NCBI RefSeq assembly: GCF_010119205.1
Contig: NZ_WRXM01000002.1
Coordinates: 612,982 to 676,981 of the forward strand
Direction: 5' to 3'
Length of the DNA: 64,000 nt
Origin: Haloarcula limicola
Lineage (GTDB): Archaea; Halobacteriota; Halobacteria; Halobacteriales; Haloarculaceae
The position numbers were made by a program, and so were the translations under genes. This document shows, in pieces, positions 7,054 to 36,608 of the stretch. The notes beneath the pieces were generated by a model that ran no database searches, had not been told where the DNA came from, and saw nothing but the letters and a program-made list of their open reading frames with translations. Positions within the stretch are counted from its first letter, which is position 1. Each line of letters opens with the position of its first letter.

Positions 7054-7148
7054 GTCGGCGGCTTACAGTTCGACGGTAACGAACCTTCCCATGTCGCCTA
7101 GCAACGTGCGGAGTTTGCTGTGCCACTGTCGAGAAGGGAACGACCGCA

Positions 7149-7317
7149 AACAGCCAGAAAGTCCCACCCGTGTCGGCTGTTCGGCTAGCTACTGGGTGGG
7201 ACTGAAAGGGGCGACGTTCTGCACGAACCCCGGCGATGTAAGCACCGCAGGGAGCGAAGCGACCGAGGAGCACAGCGAGCCGTGGGAGTGCAGAACGTCG
7301 GGGCTTTCTGGCTGTTC
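7149..7317. repeat. Variable-stem palindromic element, single-unit (truncated) form
   Basis: It lies in the 331 bp spacer before pitA, which otherwise shows no gene. It starts with CAGCCAGAAAG and ends with its complement inside GGGGCTTTCTGGCTGTTC (7300-7317). A short hairpin TCCCACCC/GGGTGGGA (about 7162-7201) leads to GGGACTGAAAGGGGC (7198-7212). Next comes a stem GACGTTCTGCAC (7213-7224) pairing with GTGCAGAACGTC (7288-7299) around an inner region with GATGTAAGCACCGCAGG and GAGGAGCACAGCGAG. The same end boxes and inner region recur twice at 36195-36455 with different stems. The left unit seen there appears deleted here. Confidence 0.85.
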
Positions 7318-7384
7318 ACAATCTCGAACACAACAAACGCACCAGCGACTCGGACAGAGACACCAGTAACGACGACCCAAACAA

Positions 7385-7699
7385 CTAGACGTCGAAGATG
7401 CGTCGGAGTTGCGACTCGATCTCGGCGACGAACTCGTCGAGTATCGTCTCGGCCTTCTCGTCGTCGGCGACGATCGCGGTGAGGCGGTCGAGCGGGTCCT
7501 CGGGCAGTTCGACGTAGAACCCCTCGTCCTCGTCGTAGAACGGCTCGGACTCGTTGAGGATCTGCTGGTCGATGGCGTGGACGAGCTCGGAGTCGTAGCG
7601 GTCGTTCATCACCTCGAAGGCCTGCTTGTAGGCCTTCTGCAGCTCCGGGAAGTAGTTCGCGTACTTGTCCTCGAACTTCTCGGGGTCGAACTCCGTCAT
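7385..7699 (-). CDS. Conserved haloarchaeal small acidic protein (DUF5783-like)
   Basis: 104 residues, strongly acidic and predicted largely helical, beginning TEFDPEKFEDKYANYFPELQ and ending in LDEFVAEIESQLRRIFDV. No cysteines, membrane segment or catalytic motif is visible. It resembles a family annotated only as DUF5783 in haloarchaea; I know of no function. It is transcribed with the same orientation as the small membrane gene and the RecJ-like gene to its right, but is separated from them by 55 bp or more. It is real by codon pattern and composition. Confidence 0.78.
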   Translation of the reverse strand: MTEFDPEKFEDKYANYFPELQKAYKQAFEVMNDRYDSELVHAIDQQILNESEPFYDEDEGFYVELPEDPLDRLTAIVADDEKAETILDEFVAEIESQLRRIFDV

Positions 7700-36104: not shown

Positions 36105-36194
36105 ACGGTTTGGAAAATCGCTCGGGCGTAATAGTTCTATGGTTCCCGGCCTAGCAGTGGTCAGTGAGGGGGAGTTCGACGAGGGGAGTATCTC

Positions 36195-36455
36195 GAACAG
36201 CCAGAAAGCCCCCGGACGCTCGATTGCCGGGACTCGCTGTGCGCGCTCACTTCGTTCGCGTGCTTACGTCGTCCGGGCTAATCGAGCGTCCGGCCCCTTT
36301 CAGTCCCACCCCGTAGCTGGTCGGCCAGCCGATACGGGCGGGACTGAAAGGGGCCGCTCGTTCCGGGAAGACGGGCGACGTAAGGACCGCAGGCCGGAGG
36401 CCGAGGACCGCAGCGAGCCCCTCGACTGGAACGAGCGGGGGCTTTCTGGCTGTTC
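36195..36455. repeat. Variable-stem palindromic element, full two-unit form
   Basis: 261 bp bounded by a perfect 18 bp inverted repeat (GAACAGCCAGAAAGCCCC at 36195-36212; its complement at 36438-36455). The centre is a perfect 15 bp inverted repeat (GCCCCTTTCAGTCCC at 36293-36307 with 36340-36354). Between centre and each end is an arm with its own perfect stem: CGGACGCTCGATT (36213-36225) with 36280-36292, and CGCTCGTTCC (36355-36364) with 36428-36437. The arms' inner regions are alike when one is reversed (ACGTAAG, CGCAG or similar, CAGCGAG) although the stems differ. Two mirror-image units therefore make up the element. It fills much of the 504 bp spacer 36105-36608, where I see no gene. 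Confidence 0.9.
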
Positions 36456-36608
36456 TGGGTCCTCACGGTTCCGTCGGCGGTACACGAATCAGTGGCTGCT
36501 AGCGGGGCTTTCTAACCGTCCGTCGTCGAGCTCTCACTCTCCGTTCGAACTGAACCAACCGTTGCTAGGTCCACAAGGGTCAAATAGGCGCGTGCCGAGG
36601 TGTGGCGT

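Follow-up and report, generated by a model that had tools for sequence, protein, structure and literature searches.

The window, the whole 64-kb stretch of Haloarcula limicola DNA that was analysed, contains two elements that each span from one CTAG to another, element 1 at 7098-7388 and element 2 at 36151-36568. The tetranucleotide is rare in window DNA, with 32 occurrences of which 6 lie within the two elements. Element 1 carries on its plus strand a hairpin unit (copy 1, 7198-7317), which scores 135.5 bits with R1, a covariance model for which 24 units of the H. limicola genome were used. The unit starts with an A box, GGGACTGAAAGGGGC (7198-7212), and ends with a B box, GGGGCTTTCTGGCTGTTC (7300-7317). 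The 5' arm of its outer stem (7212-7224) is predicted to fold onto the 3' arm (7288-7300), with 13 of 13 positions forming Watson-Crick pairs, and the stem encloses the inner motif GTAAGCACCGCAGG (7238-7251), a predicted apical GCGAAGC mini-hairpin with a GNA triloop closed by C-G (7254-7260) and the motif CAGCGAG (7273-7279). The end boxes, inner motifs and perfect stem listed in an initial annotation of this DNA were all found, and its description of the unit was correct, but the start of copy 1 that it gave, 7149, was wrong, and it had missed the CTAG-tipped element of which the unit forms one half and whose other half, at 7148-7197, has collapsed. Of this lost left partner, a remnant B box with two mismatches is present on the minus strand (7148-7165), fused to the central hairpin between the half-elements (7161-7202; GTCCCACCC...GGGTGGGAC). 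Four B boxes were found where 0.03 were expected by chance, and the fold z-score of copy 1 was -3.2 as DNA and -3.7 as RNA. Together with the covariance score, these values place the structure of copy 1 far beyond chance. The homology to relatives breaks and resumes at the CTAGs at 7098 and 7385, and the gene next to the element, at 7385-7699, has its TAG stop codon within the right tip.

Element 2 is a complete CTAG-tipped pair (CTAG at 36151, 36499 and 36565) that is missing or decayed in relatives, whose homology resumes only past the last CTAG at 36565. Its left unit (36195-36307, minus strand, R1 score of 118.2 bits) and right unit (36340-36455, plus strand, 127.5 bits) face each other head to head, with a central hairpin between them. 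As had been noted for the two copies near 36.3 kb, their stems differ from that of copy 1. Both stems are fully paired. The right spacer contains a second, degenerate B box on the plus strand (36504-36521), which belongs to a 66-bp repeat of B box, spacer and CTAG. Such B boxes with spacers adjoin some units in tandem, with periods of 45, 48, 54 or 66 bp (L146:407-939, L157:295-492, L161:699-908 and 36438-36568 of the window), and each tandem copy ends in or near CTAG. Among 87 distinct spacers between B box and CTAG, the CTAG is found at position 2 mod 3 past the B box, and pyrimidines make up 74% of the bases at every third position. Protein coding was considered for this spacer in view of the 3-nt phased composition and rejected, since the one orthologous pair that was inspected, by eye, had no codon-like pattern of substitutions.

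Distribution, mobility and exchange of units

The H. limicola genome has 24 exact copies of the A box, and a search with R1 found 38 units. Many of them are paired head to head, whereas in other cases the partner has collapsed and a single unit is left. The typical unit has a length of 104 to 129 nt and a 13-bp stem plus GAAAG/CTTTC. The element is a dispersed, non-coding repeat of about 290 to 420 bp with CTAG at both tips, which holds up to two units of about 115 nt, inverted, around a central hairpin. Matches to R1 were present in 121 of 146 genomes of the host's family, with all 22 genera represented; at the level of the class, 333 of the 391 genomes sampled had a match (about 85%; 76 of 86 genera). 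In a phylum-wide sample, 67 of 393 genomes had a match, and all 67 were from the window's own order. The element is therefore near-universal among haloarchaea and confined to its own order in the phylum sample. R1 matches were also found on haloarchaeal plasmids; in the plasmid records CP031304.1 and CP002989.1, a hypothetical protein, possibly a spurious gene, is annotated beneath the match. A phage or viral origin was rejected: the phage records had no R1 match, and of 16 exact 15-mer matches in viral contigs none was an R1 match. A role as terminator between convergent genes was also rejected, since only 4 of 51 elements were so placed by a rough call of gene orientation.

Within one family, the copy number ranged from 0 to at least 24, as expected for a mobile repeat. 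In relatives of the same genus, homology ends and restarts at or beside the CTAG tips, and CTAG is 20-fold enriched in the flanks of B boxes. Sites that hold an element in one genome can lack it in relatives: in genome G018, the first site is down to a 14-nt spacer, and at a third site the joined flanks align to relatives over the full 254-nt query in 253 to 263 nt, free of any element. As for target duplication at the CTAG-tipped sites, the empty sites of the relatives are too diverged to resolve duplicates. The range in copy number and the empty sites with breaks at or beside the CTAG tips support mobility.

What is copied as a module is the single unit. In three genomes, we found pairs of units with cores at least 90% and up to 98% identical whose flanks were at the background level, with an identity of 0.67 versus a background of 0.70 on the A side and 0.58 versus 0.58 on the B side. 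Units are thus copied between elements independently of their flanks, which could be due to gene conversion or to transposition of single units. An element can also lose one unit: at site 1, the right unit is kept and the left lost in the H. limicola genome (G000), and the opposite is the case in the relative G008. From the junctions, this loss looks like a deletion between the direct repeats GGGRCT that open the A and B boxes. At L123:1509-1546, a fully collapsed remnant, GAACAGCCAGAAAGCCCCCGGCCCCTTTCTGGCTCTTC, is the product of an element shrunk to its inverted boxes. Short perfect hairpins of about 20 nt each are inserted in some units as pairs, up to four per unit (L022:426-751; also L017, L028, L029, L030, L144, L154 and L164), with variable stems and spacers such as TGATCA, TCATCA and CAGCCCA. 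These double hairpins have the appearance of yet another mobile element.

Pairing is kept while the stem sequence turns over

The initial annotation had claimed that pairing is retained while the letters change, and the alignments strongly confirm this. In the 24 aligned units of the H. limicola genome, 97.4% of the cells pair, and compensatory change is seen in 21 of 32 pairs; when one side was slid, pairing fell to 28 to 47%. In a larger set of 120 distinct units, drawn from many genomes, 98.0% of the cells were paired and 23 of 32 pairs had changed on both sides (871 cells). The covariation score of 0.590, compared to 0.159 in shuffled and no more than 0.075 in slid alignments, comes from an alignment that was fitted to the model and so leans towards structure. 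Covariation, for which a check had been proposed, is thus present. Nor do many copies share the same stem, as would have spoken against a conserved fold: 101 distinct outer stems were found among 130 units, and of their 1,690 outer-stem positions 1,642 were Watson-Crick pairs, 33 G.T, 7 A.C and 8 others. Each unit keeps its pairing, a ladder of G.A pairs and the boxes while the letters of the stem turn over.

This turnover was analysed in 42 sister pairs of units, picked by their sequence outside the stem (7.7% diverged). Of their stem pairs, 31% differed, and 164 changes were two-sided versus 7 one-sided, which indicates that the stem turns over fast and in a concerted manner; among close unit pairs, the numbers were 215 and 44. 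Either strong selection for the fold or copying from arm to arm, the two kinds of cause raised in the initial annotation, would explain such concerted turnover, and the ratio of 164:7 could arise from arm-to-arm copying instead of recognition of a shape. If copying were the whole explanation, the elements would be remnants without function, and their stems would stay paired because each forms a quasi-palindrome in which one arm is rewritten by template switching to the other. A report on yeast describes template switching that extends the identity of quasi-palindrome arms (PMC3820800), and the excess of two-sided changes is what it would leave behind. However, the GA/GA ladder, unpaired GGG stretches and an inner mismatch beside the stems stay uncorrected and are conserved, the boxes and the inner motif are conserved throughout the class, and the wobbles are asymmetric. 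The excess of G.T over A.C has a probability of about 4 × 10^-5 in a two-sided binomial test that assumes independent units; the units share ancestry, however, and simple P values therefore overstate the case. From this excess and the conserved, uncorrected mismatches, it would seem that a single folded strand is under constraint. Moreover, template switching does not predict the avoidance between partner stems described below, and we regard it as a quite unlikely explanation of the element as a whole.

The left and right stems of the same element are less similar than those of shuffled partners, with a mean of 5.9 versus 7.1 shared letters of 13, and none of 2,000 permutations gave a value as low. 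Each of four data sets showed the avoidance on its own (P = 0.0024, 0.0008 and 0.04, and 0 of 5,000 permutations), and shared runs between partner stems do not exceed 6 letters. Identical stems would allow the two units to join as one long palindrome. Therefore, a need for separate folding, or for stability against loss of the palindrome, is a likely cause of the avoidance.

Folded strand and proposed mobilisation

If a folded strand is under constraint, is it DNA or RNA? The unit had been called RNA-like, which holds as one option, but its C-GNA-G triloops resemble DNA mini-hairpins and it lies within a mobile DNA element. Of the 111 apical loops with three bases, 93 are GNA, and C-G closes 107 of 132 apical loops, whereas four-base GNRA loops are nearly absent from the apices. 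In the apical half, 105 of 110 2x2 loops are GA/GA, as counted in folds with RNA parameters, which favour GA/GA. C-GNA-G is known as a hyper-stable DNA mini-hairpin motif (PMC4686876); that work on d(GCGNAGC) was done with short synthetic DNA, whereas the motif caps a long natural hairpin here. The loop features lean towards DNA, short of proof. A structured non-coding RNA that rides on the mobile element, with the inverted pair providing a correctly oriented unit in a transcript from either side, would fit the strand-specific G.T excess and the GA ladders equally well, as well as the compensatory covariation and the RNA fold z-score of -3.66. In addition, a PATE, one of the haloarchaeal repeats discussed below, was reported to be active as non-coding RNA in Halobacterium salinarum (cited in PMC10544981). 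However, the dominance of GNA triloops over GNRA-type tetraloops and the frequent double-hairpin insertions inside units argue against an RNA, and Rfam 15 has no family that matches at the gathering score, with only sub-threshold, chance-like matches in a permissive search. We therefore consider a non-coding RNA unlikely.

Our preferred explanation, to which we give about an even chance of being correct, is a palindromic, non-autonomous mobile element that is mobilised in trans as a folded single strand, which is probably DNA rather than RNA. A putative recombinase or transposase, acting in trans, would recognise the strand that reads A box first, folded as single-stranded DNA. If a folded single strand is recognised, its shape would matter and the sequence of the stem would not. 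The two units would have to fold separately and avoid one long palindrome, and elements with look-alike stems would then be lost. No autonomous transposon partner was found in the part of the transposase repertoire that was scanned. A bolder version, which we offer tentatively and think doubtful, is that nothing but the shape of the folded DNA is recognised in the unit, with the units as interchangeable cassettes with free-running stems, two dissimilar ones per element, and a single-strand recombinase that is not of the Y1 type. The element is mobile, modular and structured; the enzyme and the DNA form are putative, as is any benefit for the host.

Comparison with known systems

That no named family fits, as had been suspected, agrees with our searches: Rfam gave no family at the gathering score, only sub-threshold miRNA and sRNA matches in the permissive search, and in the literature searched by sequence there was no relevant occurrence of the boxes and inner motifs. 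If our interpretation is right, a structured DNA repeat present in about 85% of the sampled haloarchaeal genomes is missing from Rfam. It would provide hundreds of natural replicates for the question of how pairing is kept under sequence turnover, by selection or by arm-to-arm copying, and the avoidance between partners would allow separate folding or the instability of palindromes to be tested directly in a living genome.

The attC sites of integrons work as a folded single strand with paired arms of variable sequence. The comparison is one of working principle only, and unlike attC, the haloarchaeal unit has an inner apical motif that is conserved; neither an integron nor a cassette array was seen. 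Bacterial REP/BIME sequences with their RAYT enzymes share with the element inverted hairpin pairs dispersed between genes and strand-polar feet. However, REPs are described as 20 to 40 bp long (PMC3733652) and are linked to a Y1 RAYT, whereas the haloarchaeal unit has about 115 nt and resides in a genome without Y1 (PF01797).

Among described repeats, PATE and SMR-A of Haloquadratum come closest (PMC3119063). PATEs, palindrome-associated transposable elements, have near-terminal palindromes and heterogeneous ends of 20 to 50 bp with a short terminal oligonucleotide (PMC3119063). The element shares with them its haloarchaeal host, its non-coding nature, near-terminal palindromes with no transposase gene, 20- to 50-bp variable ends with a short conserved tip, and core deletions. 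It could thus be a known PATE or another IS200/IS605-derived repeat served in trans by a Y1 TnpA. However, PATEs have no terminal inverted repeats, whereas this element is two-fold symmetric, with B boxes, units and CTAG tips inverted; it also differs in its two inverted, boxed units with an inner motif and in its class-wide occurrence. Nor was a relation of its ends to IS605-type transposons found: PF01797 (Y1_Tnp) is absent from the unit-rich genomes G000 and G028, no R1 unit was present in any of 47 tnpA/tnpB loci, and tnpB was present in all of five genomes that had been selected for their lack of an R1 match, four of which also had tnpA. These findings argue against mobilisation by an IS605/PATE or REP-RAYT system at present, and we consider this origin very unlikely; a Y1 enzyme that has since been lost is possible. 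Three genomes without an R1 match (G001, G005 and G121) are among the richest in tnpB of 12 compared, with 24 to 37 matches, a hint in a small, chosen set that tnpB and units are anticorrelated.

SMR-A, a short mobile repeat, resembles the unit in its length of about 110 bp, its prominent inverted ends, its multiple copies and its location inside a larger palindromic element (PMC3119063), although SMR-A (HqIRS42/43/55) was compared by description only. SMR types are commonly more than 95% identical (PMC3119063), whereas the haloarchaeal units, with 101 distinct stems in 130 of them, keep only the pairing of their stems.
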